Below are positions 3,397 through 10,862 of a stretch of DNA of 64,000 bases, piece by piece; within the stretch, counting starts at the first letter, position 1, and each line of letters opens with the position of its first letter. The notes under the pieces are model-generated. The model was not told where the DNA came from. It was given only the letters and a program-made list of their open reading frames with translations, and did no database searches. The stretch lies in contig NZ_CP108569.1 in assembly GCF_036010505.1 (NCBI RefSeq), forward strand, positions 5,075,001 to 5,139,000, given 5' to 3'. Source of the DNA: Streptomyces sp. NBC_01197 (GTDB lineage: Bacteria > Actinomycetota > Actinomycetes > Streptomycetales > Streptomycetaceae). The position numbers and the translations under genes were made by a program.

Positions 3397-4548
3397 GTGA
3401 CACGTAAGACAGTGCGGATCGCCATGAACGGCGTGACCGGCCGGATGGGCTACCGCCAGCACCTGGTCCGCTCCCTCCTCGCGATCCGCGCGGAGGGCGG
3501 CCTGGACCTCGGCGACGGCACGGTGCTCTGGCCCGAGATCGTCCTGGTCGGCCGACGTGAGCACGCCCTCCGGGCGATGGCCGAGAAGCACGGGCTGGAT
3601 CAGTGGTCCACCGACCTCGACGGCGTCCTGGCCGACCCCGCCATCGACATCTACTTCGACGCCCAGGTCACGTCCGCCCGCGAAGAGGCGCTGCGCAAGG
3701 CCATCGCCGCCGGGAAGCACATCTACACCGAGAAACCGACCGCCACTGACCTCGACGGCGCGCTGGAGCTGGCCCGGCTGGCAGCGGCCGCCGGCATCAA
3801 GCACGGTGTCGTCCAGGACAAGCTGTTCCTGCCGGGCCTGCTGAAGCTCAAGCGGCTCATCGACGGCGGCTTCTTCGGGAAGATCCTCTCCATCCGGGGC
3901 GAGTTCGGCTACTGGGTCTTCGAGGGCGACTGGCAGGAGGCGCAGCGCCCCTCGTGGAACTACCGTGCGGAGGACGGCGGCGGCATCGTCGTGGACATGT
4001 TCCCGCACTGGGAGTACGTCCTGCACGAGCTGTTCGGCCGCGTCACCTCCGTACAGGCGCTCACCGCCACGCACATCCCGCAGCGCTGGGACGAGCGGTC
4101 CGAGCCGTACGAGGCGACCGCCGACGACTCCGCGTACGGCATCTTCCAGCTGGAGAGTGGCGCGGTCGCCCAGATCAACTCCTCCTGGGCGGTGCGCGTC
4201 AACCGCGACGAGCTGGTCGAGTTCCAGGTCGACGGCACGGAGGGCTCGGCCGTCGCGGGCCTGCGCAACTGCCGTGTGCAGCACCGCAGTTCCACCCCAA
4301 AGCCGGTCTGGAACCCGGACCTGCCCGCCACCCACGCGTTCCGCGACCAGTGGCAGGAGGTCCCGGACAACGGCGATTTCGGCAACGGCTTCAAGGTCCA
4401 GTGGGAGCTGTTCCTGCGCCACATCGTGCTCGACGAGCCGTACCACTGGGACCTGCTGGCCGGTGCGCGCGGAGTGCAGCTCGCCGAACTGGGGCTGAAG
4501 TCGTCCGCCGAGGGCCGCCGTCTCGACGTCCCGGAGATCTCGCTATGA
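3397..4548 (+). CDS. Gfo/Idh/MocA family NAD(P)-dependent oxidoreductase
   Basis: This 383-residue dehydrogenase has an N-terminal nucleotide-binding fold with GVTGRMG at residues 12-18 and the family EKP motif at 112-114, where the lysine acts in catalysis. The Gfo/Idh/MocA C-terminal domain follows. Members oxidise or reduce hydroxyls on sugars, inositols and related polyols. The GTG at 3397 is chosen because GGAGG sits 8 bases upstream; the GTG at 3382 overlaps that ribosome site. It is first in a three-gene operon and its stop overlaps the next start (ATGA). An inositol or amino-sugar dehydrogenase is possible, but the substrate is not readable from sequence. Confidence 0.9.
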   Translation: MTRKTVRIAMNGVTGRMGYRQHLVRSLLAIRAEGGLDLGDGTVLWPEIVLVGRREHALRAMAEKHGLDQWSTDLDGVLADPAIDIYFDAQVTSAREEALRKAIAAGKHIYTEKPTATDLDGALELARLAAAAGIKHGVVQDKLFLPGLLKLKRLIDGGFFGKILSIRGEFGYWVFEGDWQEAQRPSWNYRAEDGGGIVVDMFPHWEYVLHELFGRVTSVQALTATHIPQRWDERSEPYEATADDSAYGIFQLESGAVAQINSSWAVRVNRDELVEFQVDGTEGSAVAGLRNCRVQHRSSTPKPVWNPDLPATHAFRDQWQEVPDNGDFGNGFKVQWELFLRHIVLDEPYHWDLLAGARGVQLAELGLKSSAEGRRLDVPEISL

Positions 4549-5732
4549 CGATCCTGCTTCCCGGCGCGGGCGAAGGCGCAGGCGCGGGCGTGGGCGCCGG
4601 CGGTACATACGCCTACACGCCCCGCGCCGAACCCGCCGCGTTCACGGTGGGCGGTGCGCCGCTCGCCTCCCGTACGGTCTTCTCCGCCGCGCACGTCGTC
4701 GCCGACCCGTACGCCGATGTCTCGCCGGACGGGCCGCCCGCCGTCGACTGGGACGCCACCCTCGCCTTCCGTCGCCACCTCTGGTCCCACGGGCTCGGTG
4801 TGGCGGAGGCCATGGACACCGCGCAGCGCGGCATGGGCCTGGACTGGCCGGTCGCGGCGGAGCTGATCCGCCGGTCGGCGGCCGAGGCCAGGTCGGCCGG
4901 CGGGGCCATCGCCTGCGGTGTCGGCACCGACCAGCTCCCGGCCGGCGAAGTGACGCTGAACCAGGTCGCCGACGCGTACGAGGAGCAGCTCGCCGTCGTC
5001 GAGGAGACCGGCGCCCAGGCGATCCTGATGGCCTCGCGCGGGCTCGCGGCGGCGGCCAAGAGCCCCGACGACTACCTGGAGATCTACGGTCGGCTGCTGC
5101 GCCAGAGCGCGGAGCCGGTCATCCTGCACTGGCTCGGCCCGATGTTCGACCCGGCGCTCGACGGCTACTGGGGCTCACCGGATCTGGACGCGGCGACCGG
5201 GGCCTTCCTGGAGGTCATCGCGGCCCATCCGGACAAGGTGGACGGCATCAAGGTGTCGCTGCTCGACGCCGGGCGCGAGGTGGAGCTGCGCCGCAGGCTG
5301 CCCGACGGGGTCCGCTGCTACACCGGGGACGACTTCAACTACCCCGACCTGATCGCGGGCGACGAGCGCGGCTTCAGCCACGCCCTGCTCGGCATCTTCG
5401 ACCCGCTCGGCCCGCTGGCCGCCGAGGCGGTCCGCGTCCTGGACACCGGGGACAGCCAGGGGTTCCGCGACCTCCTCGACCCCACGGTCGAGTTGTCCCG
5501 CCATCTCTTCCAGACCCCGACCCGCTTCTACAAGACGGGCGTGGTCCTCCTGGCCTGGCTGGCCGGACACCAGTCGCACTTCACGATGGTGGGCGGCCTC
5601 CAGTCGGCGCGCTCGCTGCCGCATCTGGCGCGGGCGTACGAGCTGGCCGACCGCCTCGGCCTCTTCCCCGACCCGGCGCTCGCGGAGAGCCGGATGAAGT
5701 CCCTGCTCGGTGTGTACGGAGTCGCTCAGTGA
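4545..5732 (+). CDS. DUF993 / dihydrodipicolinate-synthase-like protein
   Basis: This 395-residue protein fits DUF993, a TIM-barrel family related to dihydrodipicolinate synthase-type aldolases. Recognised stretches are RTVFSAAHVVADP near the N-terminus, then EAMDTAQRGMGLDW, and DGIKVSLL in the C-terminal half, whose lysine could be the Schiff-base residue (inference). The family appears in actinobacterial sugar operons without an assigned reaction that I know of. The start codon overlaps the upstream stop (ATGA) and its own stop overlaps the next start (GTGA), so the three proteins are translationally coupled and probably act in one pathway. A glycine/alanine-rich stretch occupies about residues 6-20. 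Confidence 0.8.
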   Translation: MTILLPGAGEGAGAGVGAGGTYAYTPRAEPAAFTVGGAPLASRTVFSAAHVVADPYADVSPDGPPAVDWDATLAFRRHLWSHGLGVAEAMDTAQRGMGLDWPVAAELIRRSAAEARSAGGAIACGVGTDQLPAGEVTLNQVADAYEEQLAVVEETGAQAILMASRGLAAAAKSPDDYLEIYGRLLRQSAEPVILHWLGPMFDPALDGYWGSPDLDAATGAFLEVIAAHPDKVDGIKVSLLDAGREVELRRRLPDGVRCYTGDDFNYPDLIAGDERGFSHALLGIFDPLGPLAAEAVRVLDTGDSQGFRDLLDPTVELSRHLFQTPTRFYKTGVVLLAWLAGHQSHFTMVGGLQSARSLPHLARAYELADRLGLFPDPALAESRMKSLLGVYGVAQ

Positions 5733-6562
5733 CCGCAGACCTCGCCCGCTTCAGCATCAACCAGATGACCGTGAAGCAGCTCGGCCTCCCCGAACTCGTC
5801 TCCGCCTGCACCGACTTGGGCGTCCCGGGGGTCGGCCTCTGGCGCGAACCGGTCCAGCAGTACGGAGTGGAGGCGGCAGCCGCACTCGTACGGGACGCGG
5901 GCCTGAGCGTCACCACGCTCTGCCGGGGCGGGTTCCTGACCGCGACCGATCCGGCCGAGCGGGCGGCGGCGCTGGCGGACAACCGCAGGGCGGTCGACGA
6001 GGCGGTGACGCTGGGTACGGACACGCTGGTGCTGGTCTCGGGCGGCCTCCCGGCGGGCTCGAAGGACCTGCACGGCGCACGCGAGCGGATCGCGGATGCG
6101 CTGGCCGAACTGGGGCCGTACGCGGCCGAGCGCGGGGTGCGTCTCGCGATCGAACCGCTGCACCCGATGTTCGCCGCGGACCGCTGCGTGGTCTCGACCC
6201 TGGCCCAGGCACTGGACCTGGCAGAACGCTTCCCGGCCGACCAGGTGGGCGTGGCCGTGGACACGTACCACATCTGGTGGGACGACCAGTCTCCCGCGCA
6301 GGTGGCCCGGGCGGGAGCGGGCGGTCGCATCTGCACGTTCCAGCTGGCGGACTGGACCACGCCGCTGCCGGCGGGCGTCCTGAACGGGCGCGGCCAGATC
6401 GGCGACGGGTCGGTCGACGTGCGGGAGTGGCGGGAGCGGGTGGACGCGGCAGGGTACACGGGGCCGGTCGAAGTGGAGCTGTTCAACGAGGAGCTGTGGG
6501 CTCGGGACGGCGTGGAACTGCTGCGGGAGACGGCTGAGCGGTTCGTGCGGTACGCGATGTAG
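5729..6562 (+). CDS. TIM-barrel sugar phosphate isomerase/epimerase
   Basis: This 277-residue xylose-isomerase-like TIM barrel ends the three-gene operon. Its GTG start overlaps the stop of the DUF993 gene. Typical metal-site stretches are visible: LAIEPLHPMFAADRC (Glu and His), VAVDTYHIWWD (Asp and His) and VEVELFNEE near the C-terminus. With the upstream oxidoreductase and aldolase-like protein it makes a plausible oxidise, isomerise, cleave sequence on a sugar, though the order and substrate are inference. A strong hairpin terminator follows at 6589-6638. Confidence 0.88.
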   Translation: MTADLARFSINQMTVKQLGLPELVSACTDLGVPGVGLWREPVQQYGVEAAAALVRDAGLSVTTLCRGGFLTATDPAERAAALADNRRAVDEAVTLGTDTLVLVSGGLPAGSKDLHGARERIADALAELGPYAAERGVRLAIEPLHPMFAADRCVVSTLAQALDLAERFPADQVGVAVDTYHIWWDDQSPAQVARAGAGGRICTFQLADWTTPLPAGVLNGRGQIGDGSVDVREWRERVDAAGYTGPVEVELFNEELWARDGVELLRETAERFVRYAM

Positions 6563-6588
6563 CGGTCGTGGACCGGCAGCGTCACAGC

Positions 6589-6638
6589 AGCACAGCAAGA
6601 AGGGCGACCAGCCAGGCGGTCGCCCTTCTTGCTGTGCT
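6589..6638 (+). terminator. Strong hairpin terminator of the oxidoreductase operon
   Basis: Positions 6589-6609 and 6618-6638 are perfect reverse complements, giving a 21-base-pair stem with an 8-base loop. The hairpin starts 27 bases after the isomerase stop and separates this operon from the 2-MIB cassette. There is no long T-run, as is common in Streptomyces. Confidence 0.85.
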
Positions 6639-6871
6639 CCTTCGCGTCGCTCGCACTGTCCGGATTTCGTCGGTCATCCGATAAACCCGATGCGGGGCGA
6701 GATCGCTGCATCGAAGTAACTCGGCTGTCCACCCGGGCGGGTTGGACGAACGGGCCCTTACGGTTCTCGTGAATCTGGACGGATTGCCTGCGATTCGCCC
6801 CGCTTCATTCCTCTTTCATCGGTCGGCGCGTGCGTTGCCGATCACCGCCGTCGCAAAGGAGAACTCGCCTG
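6639..6871 (+). promoter_or_regulatory. Leader/promoter region of the 2-MIB cassette
   Basis: This gene-free stretch must hold the promoter of the encapsulin-led cassette. An imperfect inverted repeat (GTCCACCCG ... CGGGTTGGAC, about 6727-6746) is visible. No convincing -35/-10 pair could be assigned by eye. A ribosome site AAAGGAGA at 6855-6862 serves the encapsulin start at 6872. Confidence 0.4.
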
Positions 6872-8281
6872 ATGACAGTTGAGACCGGCCCGGAAACAGA
6901 GCCGGCGCCGTCAGGGCAGTCCAGCCTGAGCACAGCGGCCGCCCGCAACCTCGCCACCACCACCAAGTCCGCTCCGCAGATGCAGGAGATCACCTCGCGG
7001 TGGCTGCTGCGGATGCTCCCCTGGGTGAAGACCAAGGGCGGCACCTACCGGGTGAACCGCCGTCTGACCTACACCGTCGGCGACGGACACATCGAGTTCG
7101 TCCAGGACGGTGCGGGGGTCCGGGTGATCCCCCGCGAGCTCGGCGAACTGGCCCTGCTGCGCGGCTTCGACGACGTCGACGTGCTCACCGCGATCGCCGA
7201 CCGGTGCGTCCAGCGCGACTTCCGCGCCGGCGAGGTGCTGGCCGAGCGGGGGAACCTCGCCGAGCAGATCCACCTGGTCGCGCACGGCCGGATCAAACAG
7301 ACCTCCGCGGGCAAGTACGGCGACGAGGTCTCCGTCGCCCTGCTCGCCGACGGTGACCGGTTCGGGGAGAACGCCCTTCTGGACACCGACGCCAGGTGGG
7401 ACTACACAGCCACCGCCGAGACCTCCGGCACCCTGCTCACCCTGTCCCGCGCGGACTTCGACGCCGTGGTGTCCGGCGCGCCGAGTCTCCAGGCCCACCT
7501 CGATCAGTTCAGCTCGCTCGCGCTCCGGCCGCAGACCCGGCACGGCGAGGCCGAGATCGCGATGTCGGCCGGTCACACCGGCGAAGCCCAGCTCCCGGGC
7601 GCCTTCGTCGATTACGAGCTCAACCCGCGTGAGTACGAACTCTCCGTCGCGCAGACGGTCCTGCGCGTCCACACGAGGGTCGCCGACCTCTTCAACGGGC
7701 CGATGAACCAGACCGAGGAGCAACTCAGGCTCACTGTCGAGGCGTTGCGTGAGCGCCAGGAGCACGAGCTGATCAACAACCGGGAATTCGGCCTGCTCCA
7801 CAACGCCGCCTTCAAGCAGCGGATCCAGACCCAGTCCGGCCCGCCCACCCCGGACGACCTCGACGAGCTGCTCTGCCGCCGCCGGGGCACCAAGCTCTTC
7901 CTCGCCCATCCCCGGACGATCGCGGCGATCGGGCGCGGGTTCAACGCCTGCGGGCTCTACCCGGACCACGTGGACCTCGGTGGCCAGCAGGTCCCGGCCT
8001 GGCGCGGGGTTCCGATCCTGCCCTGCAACAAGATCCCCATCAGCAAGGACAACACCAGCTCAATCCTTGCCATGCGCACCGGCGAGGACAACCAGGGGGT
8101 CATCGGACTCCACCAGACCGGCCTGCCGGAGGAGTACGAGCCGGGGCTTTCGGTGCGTTTCATGGGCATGAACGAGCAGGCGATCATCTCGTACCTGGTC
8201 ACCACCTACTACTCCGCCGCCGTCCTGCTGCCCGATGCGCTCGGCGTGCTGGAGAACGTACAGATCGGCCACCGGAGCTAG
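6872..8281 (+). CDS. Family 2B encapsulin shell protein with cyclic-nucleotide-binding-like domain
   Basis: This 469-residue protein matches the family 2B encapsulins, HK97-fold shell proteins that carry an inserted cyclic-nucleotide-binding-like (CNB) domain. The order seen is an N-terminal arm with [20 protein letters not shown] (residues 45-64), a CNB-type beta-roll (about 95-215, with GEVLAERG and [11 protein letters not shown]), then the HK97-type shell portion with [10 protein letters not shown] and a C-terminal [21 protein letters not shown]. Such shells enclose 2-methylisoborneol synthase in streptomycetes. The ATG at 6872 has AAAGGAGA 9 bases upstream. The gene leads the cassette, 57 bases before the cyclase gene. 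Whether the CNB domain binds a ligand is not evident from sequence. Confidence 0.93.
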
Positions 8282-8338
8282 TGCCGCGGCAGGCACCTGG
8301 TCCCGGGGCAGCCCACCCACCTGACCAAGGAGTTACGG

Positions 8339-9481
8339 ATGCCCGATCCCGGGCCTTCACTTCTGCAGCCGAGCGCTGCTCTGCAACGGATCCTGTGCGG
8401 CCCCAGCGGTCTGGGCACGTCGGGACTGCACCTGGGACGGCGCGCGGAACCTCCGGCTCCTGCCGAGCCGGAGGCCGGGCCCGAGGCCGATCCTCCGGTG
8501 GAGGGCACACCGGTCCCGGGTCTCTACCACCATCCGGTGGCGCCCCCCGACCCGGCTCGGGTGGAGGAGGTCAGCCGGCGGATCAAGGTGTGGGCGGTGG
8601 ACGAGGTCCAGGCGTACCCCCCGGAGTGGGAGGACCAGTTCGACGGCTTCTCCGTCGGCCGCTACATGGTCGCCTGCCACCCGGACGCGCCCACCGTCGA
8701 CCATCTGATGGTCGCCACCCGGCTGATGGTCGCCGAGAACGCGCTCGACGACTGCTACTGCGAGGACCACGGCGGGTCACCCGTCGGACTCGGCAGCCGA
8801 CTCCTGCTGGCCCACACGGCTCTGGACCCCCTGCACACGACGCCGGAGTACGCGCCGGAGTGGGCGGAGTCGCTCCAGTCGGACGCGCCCCGGCGCGCCT
8901 ACCGCTCCGCGATGGAGTACTTCAACCAGCAGGCCACCCCCTCGCAGACCGACCGGTACCGGCACGACATGGCCCGGCTGCACCTGGGTTACCTGGCCGA
9001 GGCCGCGTGGGCCCAGGCGGACCACGTACCCGAGGTGTGGGAGTACCTGGCGATGCGCCAGTTCAACAACTTCCGCCCCTGCCCCACCATCACCGACACC
9101 GTCGGCGGCTACGAACTCCCCGCCGACCTGCACGCCCAGCCGGCCATGCAGCGGGTCATCGCACTCGCGGGCAACGCCACCACCATCGTCAACGACCTGT
9201 ACTCGTACACCAAGGAGCTCAACGGCCCCGGCAGACACCTGAATCTGCCCGTGGTGATCGCCGACCGGGAGGGCGTCTCCGACCGGGACGCCTATCTGAA
9301 GGCGGTCGAGGTCCACAACGACCTCATGCACGGCTTCGAAAGCGAAGCCGCCGCGCTGGCAGCCGAGTGCCCCGTCCCGAGCGTGCTGCGTTTCCTCAGG
9401 GGAGTGGCCGCGTGGGTCGACGGCAATCACTACTGGCACCAGACCAACACCTACCGATACAGCCTGCCCGATTTCTGGTAA
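8339..9481 (+). CDS. 2-methylisoborneol synthase (class I terpene cyclase)
   Basis: This 380-residue cyclase converts 2-methylgeranyl diphosphate to the earthy odorant 2-methylisoborneol. Both magnesium-binding motifs are present: DDCYCED at residues 137-143 and NDLYSYTKE at 285-293, the former typical of 2-MIB synthases. Residues 1 to about 65 are rich in Pro, Ala, Glu and Gly and look disordered; in family 2B systems such a tail directs the enzyme into the encapsulin. The ATG at 8339 has AAGGAG upstream at 8327-8332. The gene lies between the shell gene and the methyltransferase that makes its substrate. Confidence 0.95.
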   Translation: MPDPGPSLLQPSAALQRILCGPSGLGTSGLHLGRRAEPPAPAEPEAGPEADPPVEGTPVPGLYHHPVAPPDPARVEEVSRRIKVWAVDEVQAYPPEWEDQFDGFSVGRYMVACHPDAPTVDHLMVATRLMVAENALDDCYCEDHGGSPVGLGSRLLLAHTALDPLHTTPEYAPEWAESLQSDAPRRAYRSAMEYFNQQATPSQTDRYRHDMARLHLGYLAEAAWAQADHVPEVWEYLAMRQFNNFRPCPTITDTVGGYELPADLHAQPAMQRVIALAGNATTIVNDLYSYTKELNGPGRHLNLPVVIADREGVSDRDAYLKAVEVHNDLMHGFESEAAALAAECPVPSVLRFLRGVAAWVDGNHYWHQTNTYRYSLPDFW

Positions 9482-9496
9482 GGAGCGGACTTCACC

Positions 9497-10375
9497 ATGA
9501 CCAGCACCGAGCTCACCACTGACGCCTCCGTTTTCATCCCGGCCCCGGCGTCGCCGTACCAGGGTGACATCGCCCGATACTGGGACCGTGAGGCCAGGCC
9601 AGTGAACCTGCGTCTCGGCGACGTCGACGGGCTCTACCACCACCACTACGGCATCGGCGACGTCGACCACGCCGCCCTCGGGGACGCTCGCGACGGCGAG
9701 TACGAGAAGAGGCTCATCGCCGAGTTGCACCGCCTGGAGTCGGCGCAGGCCGAAGTCCTCCTGGACCACCTCGGCTCCATCGGGCGTGACGACATGCTGA
9801 TGGACGCCGGCTGTGGCCGGGGCGGTTCGATGGTGATGGCGCACCAGCGGTTCGGATGCAAGGTCGAGGGCGTCACGCTGTCGGCCAAGCAGGCCGAGTT
9901 CGGCAACCGGCGCGCACACGAACTCGGCATCGACGACCACGTCCGCGCCCGGGTGTGCAACATGCTCGACACGCCCTTCGAGACGGGCCGGGCCGCGGGC
10001 TCGTGGAACAACGAGTCGAGTATGTACGTCGACCTGGACGACCTCATGGCCGAGCACTCCCGGGTCCTCGGGGTCGGCGGCCGTTATGTGACCATCACCG
10101 GCTGCTGGAACCCGCGTTACGGCCAGCCCTCGAAGTGGGTCTCGCAGATCAATGCGCACTTCGAGTGCAACATCCACTCCCGCCGGGAGTACCTGAAGTC
10201 CATGGCCGACAACCGTCTCGTACCGCAGACCATCATCGACCTGACCGCGGCGACGCTGCCCTACTGGGAGCTGCGGGCCACGTCCTCGCTGGTCACAGGC
10301 ATTGAAGAGGCGTTCATCAACTCGTACAAGGACGGCTCGTTCCAGTACCTCCTGATCGCGGCCGACCGCGTCTGA
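9497..10375 (+). CDS. Geranyl diphosphate 2-C-methyltransferase
   Basis: This 292-residue SAM-dependent methyltransferase has motif I DAGCGRGG at residues 103-110, with the SMT/cyclopropane-synthase-like layout. It methylates C2 of geranyl diphosphate to give 2-methyl-GPP, the precursor used by the adjacent cyclase. Its ribosome site (AAGGAG) overlaps the cyclase stop, so the two are co-translated. The conserved stretch NNESSMYVDL follows the SAM domain core. It completes the encapsulin-cyclase-methyltransferase cassette and faces the ribose operon across a hairpin. Confidence 0.94.
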   Translation: MTSTELTTDASVFIPAPASPYQGDIARYWDREARPVNLRLGDVDGLYHHHYGIGDVDHAALGDARDGEYEKRLIAELHRLESAQAEVLLDHLGSIGRDDMLMDAGCGRGGSMVMAHQRFGCKVEGVTLSAKQAEFGNRRAHELGIDDHVRARVCNMLDTPFETGRAAGSWNNESSMYVDLDDLMAEHSRVLGVGGRYVTITGCWNPRYGQPSKWVSQINAHFECNIHSRREYLKSMADNRLVPQTIIDLTAATLPYWELRATSSLVTGIEEAFINSYKDGSFQYLLIAADRV

Positions 10376-10397
10376 CCGGGCCGCCGCGGGAATGCGG

Positions 10398-10428
10398 AGG
10401 GGACCCGGTCCAGTGGTCCGGGCCCCCT
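10398..10428. terminator. Hairpin terminator between convergent 2-MIB and ribose operons
   Basis: AGGGG-a-CCCGG (from 10398) can pair with CCGGG-c-CCCCT (to 10428) around a 9-base loop, with one internal mismatch. It lies between the methyltransferase stop and the convergent rbsD stop, so it could end transcription from both sides. Confidence 0.55.
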
Positions 10429-10472
10429 CGGCACGTCGTGGCCGGGTCATCCCCCCCAGTCGGCCGTCCCGT

Positions 10473-10862
10473 TCAGAAGAAGACCCCGCACCGCAGCAGC
10501 ACATTCGCGTACGGGCGTGCCTCTCCGGTGCGGACCACCAGGCGGGTGGCAGCCGACAGGTCCTTGAGGTCGTCGTGCGGGACCAGCCGCAGGTCCGGGA
10601 AGCGGGCGTCCAACAGTTCCGCTGTCGCCGGGTTCGCCTCCCGTACCTCGCGGGCGGCCGTCGCGCCCTCCACGACCAGTTCCGCGAGCAGCCCGTCGAG
10701 CACCTCCGCGAATGACGGGGTCCCGGCCCGGAACGCCAGATCGACCAGGCGGGGCCCGTCCGGGACCGGCATCCCCACATCGCAGATCAGCACACCGTCG
10801 CCGTGGCCCAACTCGGCCAGGGCGCCCGCGAGATGGCGGTTGAGGATTCCGGACTTCTTCAT
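10473..10862 (-). CDS. rbsD: D-ribose pyranase
   Basis: This 129-residue protein has the RbsD pattern: MKKSGILNRHLAGALAELGHGD at the N-terminus with the catalytic His, then LICDVGMPVP, and a C-terminal ANVLLRCGV. RbsD interconverts the pyranose and furanose forms of ribose so that ribokinase can act. Its ATG overlaps the rbsK stop (ATGA), making it the last gene of the ribose operon. Length is normal for the family. Confidence 0.95.
   Translation of the reverse strand: MKKSGILNRHLAGALAELGHGDGVLICDVGMPVPDGPRLVDLAFRAGTPSFAEVLDGLLAELVVEGATAAREVREANPATAELLDARFPDLRLVPHDDLKDLSAATRLVVRTGEARPYANVLLRCGVFF

Follow-up and report, generated by a model that had tools for sequence, protein, structure and literature searches.

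A family 2B encapsulin, a 2-methylisoborneol synthase with a candidate cargo-loading motif and a geranyl diphosphate 2-C-methyltransferase in an eshA-mibA-mibB-type operon of Streptomyces sp. NBC_01197

Among the described systems close to the locus considered here is the eshA-mibA-mibB operon of Streptomyces venezuelae (vnz_35035-35045), which is activated by BldC and in which eshA is reported not to be required for biosynthesis of 2-methylisoborneol (2-MIB), a terpene with a musty smell (PMC6428758). In 2-MIBS-like cyclases, GPTGLGT in the N-terminal domain has been put forward as a possible targeting sequence (PMC8346489, in extract). An extract of PMC12407261 states that the cyclic-nucleotide-binding-fold (CNB) domains of family 2B encapsulins do not bind cyclic nucleotides, are located above a large two-fold pore and possibly have another ligand, and that the pores of the S. 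lydicus shell measure 14 by 60 Å and are partly covered by these domains.

The window, a stretch of 64,000 nucleotides from Streptomyces sp. NBC_01197, carries at 6872-10375 three ORFs on one strand, with intergenic gaps of 57 and 15 nt and a good ribosome site, as read from the sequence, before each. Gene content and gene order both agree with those given in the extract on S. venezuelae, and by its sequence the locus is an operon of the published eshA-mibA-mibB type, unremarkable within a system that has been described before. An earlier, sequence-only reading of this DNA had remarked that the system is known in streptomycetes, in agreement with the published operon (PMC6428758, in part). Since the system is published and common, the locus carries little weight as a discovery. 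Its features are the following.

6590..6637, no strand assigned: hairpin, long and near-perfect, that separates the operon from the sugar-metabolism gene upstream (RNA fold)
6678..6687, plus strand: element CCGATAAACC, some 190 nt ahead of the shell ATG, conserved upstream of 2-MIB-type shells
6708..6719, plus strand: element GC(A/T)TCGA(A/G)GTAA, conserved upstream of 2-MIB-type shells
6772..6785, plus strand: element (A/G)ATCTGGACGGATT, some 90-100 nt ahead of the shell ATG, conserved upstream of 2-MIB-type shells
6855..6861, plus strand: shell ribosome-binding site AAAGGAG (read from sequence)
6872..8281, plus strand, ATG to stop: family 2B encapsulin shell (EshA / Sg Enc orthologue), 469 aa (NF041163, PF19307, PF00027, 9bhu)
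7169..7516, plus strand: CNB insertion, about residues 100-215, Pfam core 115-200 (PF00027; matches 9bhu and the CNB domains of cGMP-dependent kinase)
7367..7396, plus strand: CNB phosphate-binding-cassette region, from Glu166 (7367-7369) to Arg175 (7394-7396) (HMMER alignment)
8327..8332, plus strand: synthase ribosome-binding site AAGGAG (read from sequence)
8339..9481, plus strand, ATG to stop: 2-MIB synthase, 380 aa, putative encapsulin cargo (NF041167, 3v1v)
8399..8419, plus strand: candidate cargo-loading motif GPSGLGT, synthase residues 21-27, in a short N-terminal domain (pattern search)
8747..8767, plus strand: metal-binding motif DDCYCED, synthase residues 137-143 (sequence; aligned with 3v1v)
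9191..9217, plus strand: metal-binding motif NDLYSYTKE, synthase residues 285-293 (sequence; aligned with 3v1v)
9480..9485, plus strand: ribosome-binding site AAGGAG of the methyltransferase, overlapping the synthase stop TAA (9479-9481) (read from sequence)
9497..10375, plus strand, ATG to stop: geranyl diphosphate (GPP) 2-C-methyltransferase (GPPMT), 292 aa, without the loading motif (NF041943, 4f84)

The E-values against the NCBIfam models (8e-229 for the shell protein, 9e-151 for the synthase and 9e-143 for the methyltransferase) exclude a chance match for all three genes. The shell protein scores 760 bits against NF041163 (cut-off 400), and Pfam recognizes an HK97-type SrpI-like shell domain (PF19307, 3.5e-137) and a CNB domain (PF00027, 3e-15, residues 115-200), as the earlier reading had recognized; against NF041162, the family 2A model, it scores 350, under the cut-off of 380. 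On this domain make-up, an HK97-type shell domain with the inserted CNB domain that separates 2B from 2A, the protein is a member of family 2B. Its nearest relative, 96% identical, is already named family 2B encapsulin in Streptomyces. The nearest solved structure by sequence is 9bhu (E 1e-250, residues 1-466), listed in the database only as 'Nucleotide-binding protein', which we take to be EshA / Sg Enc, the family 2B encapsulin of Streptomyces griseus. The two proteins have in common the aligned residues 1-466, the CNB insertion and the cassette Glu and Arg, whereas the sequence differences are concentrated in the CNB region, as across the clade at large. In the S. griseus shell, the synthase is reportedly loaded via its N-terminal domain, and no cAMP is said to be bound.

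The synthase scores 502 bits against NF041167 (family 2 encapsulin cargo terpene cyclase; cut-off 400), and its nearest solved structure by sequence is 3v1v (E 1e-196, residues 6-380), which, like 3v1x, 4la5 and 4la6, is presumably the 2-MIB synthase of Streptomyces coelicolor. DDCYCED, NDLYSYTKE and the C-terminal half are all as in 3v1v; the class I terpene synthase metal motifs and the near identity to a characterised enzyme identify the window protein, on sequence grounds, as a 2-MIB synthase. It differs from 3v1v in having a much shorter N-terminal domain (8339-8750) and in its loading-type motif, GPSGLGT as against GPTGPGT. Only one of 113 DDCYCED-bearing homologs has a shorter N-terminal domain, and a near relative (L158) has a similarly short one; a naturally short cargo-loading domain of this kind should be useful to specialists. 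The methyltransferase scores 475 bits against NF041943 (cut-off 400) and aligns over nearly its full length with the GPP 2-C-methyltransferases 4f84 (E 1e-168, the nearest solved structure by sequence) and 3vc1 (E 1e-162), from which it shows no notable difference; its score above the equivalog cut-off and the alignment to a solved enzyme assign it, by sequence, to the same function. The sequence-only reading had placed an encapsulin of family 2B, a 2-MIB synthase with the two metal motifs and a GPP 2-methyltransferase in one run, had seen that the ribosome site of the last overlaps the synthase stop, and had proposed aligning the shell protein to encapsulins and the cyclase to 2-MIB synthases. 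All of this is borne out: the coordinates are exact, every model cut-off is passed and both alignments agree with the identities given.

The operon looks insulated, since a sugar-metabolism gene and the hairpin precede it and oppositely oriented genes for a D-ribose pyranase and a ribokinase-type sugar kinase (NCBIfam; the kinase, at 297 bits, falls just below the model cut-off of 300) follow it. The hairpin has 22 bp and a folding energy of -43.9 kcal/mol (z -9.0), with none of 200 shuffles as good; it lacks a T-run and is likely an insulator or terminator. A scan of 6540-10480 returned neither sigma-70 promoters nor T-tailed terminators (shuffle means 0.2 and 1.2), as expected for a high-GC actinomycete. 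Three elements recur among 32 regions upstream of 2-MIB-type shells: CCGATAAACC with at most one mismatch in 18 (5 of 96 shuffles), GC(A/T)TCGA(A/G)GTAA with at most two in 19 (0 of 96) and (A/G)ATCTGGACGGATT with at most two in 16 (0 of 96). Because these mononucleotide shuffles preserve base composition only and the regions are related, so that shared descent contributes, the counts speak for conservation and not for function. BldC activation is published for the S. venezuelae operon (PMC6428758, in part). We rejected the possibility that the synthase begins further upstream, as the in-frame shell stop TAG lies 60 nt before its ATG with no ATG, GTG or TTG codon between. The shell stop and the synthase start are thus in the same frame (8279-8339), with 19 start-less codons between them, and read-through of the TAG would yield a shell-synthase fusion.

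Within the genus, 227 of 392 sampled genomes score above the cut-off of the GPPMT model; a phylum-wide sample of 396 genomes yields seven, one of which is the window's own. We examined 87 loci, namely the window and a selection of 86 others: six from the remaining phylum genomes and 80 from the genus matches. Among the matches listed, these 80 comprise 50 of the 52 that score above 500 bits and 30 of those that score 489 bits or less. Sorted by the identity of their cyclase to that of the window, 34 loci reach at least 68%, six fall at 48-68%, 41 lie below 48% and six have no cyclase; because only 34 of the 87 belong to the first group, the GPPMT hits are not all 2-MIB operons. Among the matches listed, neighbors of non-2-MIB cyclases (L079-L128) score 507-542 bits and members of 2-MIB operons up to 489. 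Since non-2-MIB loci outscore 2-MIB loci, hits to the model should not be taken as 2-MIB capacity. A full-length shell gene lies upstream in 32 of the 34 2-MIB-type loci, the window included, in the same gene order. Of the other two, one (L142) comes from a genome that is only 55% complete, and its shell is spread over three frames. The other (L147) holds only a shell remnant (4326-4925) that matches residues 211-465 with large gaps and has no CNB domain; a shell search at E 1e-3 found nothing beyond it. The enzymes of L147 are apparently intact, with a 458-aa synthase that has the motif and a 91%-identical methyltransferase, which makes this natural shell-loss 2-MIB operon useful to specialists. 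The same genome (G750) holds three further 2B shells elsewhere. In the window's own genome, a GPPMT paralog that is 41% identical and, at 347.5 bits, under the model cut-off is clustered with a small terpene cyclase and a pair of ORFs resembling prenyl synthases (L035:7000-11900, C1 about 5379000-5383900); no shell was found in the 18-kb stretch around it, and the sequence suggests a possible shell-less methylated-terpene cluster.

The N-terminal motif occurs in its strict form in 27 of the 34 2-MIB-type synthases and in all 34 in a relaxed form devised after inspection of the sequences that miss the strict one (shuffle expectation 0.04), and in none of the 34 in the catalytic part. Among 47 other cyclases, 34 have the strict and 43 the relaxed form (expected 0.08), and a protein search found the strict form in 113 of the 120 nearest synthases. 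The motif is a correlate, and in the source strain a putative signal. One shell-adjacent cyclase of another type (L042) lacks it. Eight cyclases with the motif or nearly so have no shell in the examined stretch, yet a 2B shell gene is present elsewhere in each of the eight genomes: at a distance of about 110-190 kb in five cases, on another contig in two, and in one (L041) about 7 kb away, only slightly beyond the examined stretch. We rejected the idea that the motif vanishes once the local shell is lost, as seven of these eight cyclases fit the relaxed form and the eighth (L127) is a one-letter variant. The distant shells match what would be expected of loading in trans, without demonstrating loading, and cyclases with the motif and a distant shell may interest specialists for this reason.

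The gene identities, the operon layout, the motif on the synthase only and the make-up of the CNB pocket are observed, and from them we infer the loading, the location of the methyltransferase, the route of the metabolites and the role of the CNB domain. The proposal as a whole, an eshA-mibA-mibB-type operon with the synthase encapsulated, the methyltransferase outside and 2-methyl-GPP entering the shell, is very probably correct. The methyltransferase would convert GPP and S-adenosylmethionine to 2-methyl-GPP, probably outside the shell, and the N-terminal GPSGLGT region would draw the synthase into the family 2B shell. 2-Methyl-GPP would enter via the large two-fold pores, above which the CNB domain would stand, and the synthase inside would cyclise it to 2-MIB, a neutral volatile that could exit.

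The division of the two enzymes is suggested by the motif: it is found on the synthases, is absent from the window methyltransferase and occurs in none of 88 GPPMT-like proteins, so that in all likelihood the shell encloses the synthase alone and 2-methyl-GPP has to come in from outside. The sequence-only reading had spoken of a complete encapsulated pathway, which the motif supports for the synthase and does not support for the methyltransferase. Encapsulation of both enzymes is decidedly unlikely on this ground, even though the operon is tight, with 15 nt between synthase and methyltransferase, the gene order is similar across relatives and the methyltransferase could, to judge from sequence, ride in on the synthase. 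A different possibility is that the shell protein, as EshA with its link to ppGpp accumulation, acts chiefly in the regulation of development or stress and has a secondary link to 2-MIB. In its favor are the need for EshA in adequate (p)ppGpp synthesis and antibiotic production (PMC6627660, in extract), 2-MIB production without eshA (PMC6428758, in part) and the shell remnant beside the apparently intact 2-MIB enzymes of L147, but the shell gene that precedes the synthase at 32 of the 34 2-MIB-type loci and the motif on every 2-MIB-type synthase examined argue against it, and we consider it unlikely. Given the reported dispensability of eshA, the shell may have another function or just modulate the pathway; together with the retention of the enzymes in L147, this weakens the need for a shell in the chemistry of the encapsulated-synthase proposal.

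As for the CNB domain, the sequence-only reading had left its role open; a partial answer is in print, namely the lack of cyclic-nucleotide binding and the position above the two-fold pore (PMC12407261, in extract). We compared 80 shell ORFs of more than 200 bits (L142 and L039 give two each, and the L147 remnant lies below the threshold) and the 120 nearest proteins, excluding rows with a gap at the residue (1 of 34 and 2 of 46). Glu or Asp stands in the cassette of every one of the 120 nearest shells and of 32 of the 33 shells of the 2-MIB type, but only 7 of the 44 from other loci have it. The Arg is found in 22 of the 33, and among the 120 nearest there are 49 with Arg and 49 with Thr; in other-cyclase shells this column is a gapped stretch, which makes its counts alignment-dependent. 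Since Arg varies and Glu/Asp is retained, the phosphate-binding Arg is not strictly selected and the acidic residue is clade-specific. Among 32 2-MIB-type shells, the CNB region (mean pairwise identity 73%) varies faster than the shell fold (87%).

The alignment of Glu166 and Arg175 with the FGE...R of cGMP-dependent kinase (HMMER) could suggest that the domain genuinely responds to cAMP or cGMP and thereby opens the pore. Sg Enc (9bhu), however, has the same Glu and Arg, and the available part of PMC12407261 reports no cyclic-nucleotide binding by such domains; Arg is variable even among the nearest shells, and a loose search for the canonical cassette in 200 aligned shell rows matched two (L114, L096), which inspection by eye places away from the true position and which were rejected as pattern accidents. 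Such a cyclic-nucleotide switch is therefore extremely unlikely; the domain more likely serves as a lid on the pore or senses a ligand other than a cyclic nucleotide. The analysis narrows the CNB question a little, in that the clade-specific pocket residue restricts the candidate ligands. Because the acidic, ribose-contacting residue is retained where other terpene shells have lost it (32/33 versus 7/44) as the phosphate Arg drifts, one might propose that the CNB domain of 2-MIB-type shells senses a ribose-bearing ligand that is not a cyclic nucleotide, such as (p)ppGpp, an S-adenosyl compound or some other nucleotide, and sets the opening of the two-fold pore. This specific version is quite unlikely as it stands; if true, it would link 2-MIB output with the old EshA-ppGpp phenotype.

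The window's genome encodes a second 2B shell (C1:2292240-2293589, 771.6 bits), which is 65% identical to that of the window. It is followed by a polyprenyl-synthase-like ORF, and a divergent ORF there resembles, by eye, an Rrf2-type regulator.
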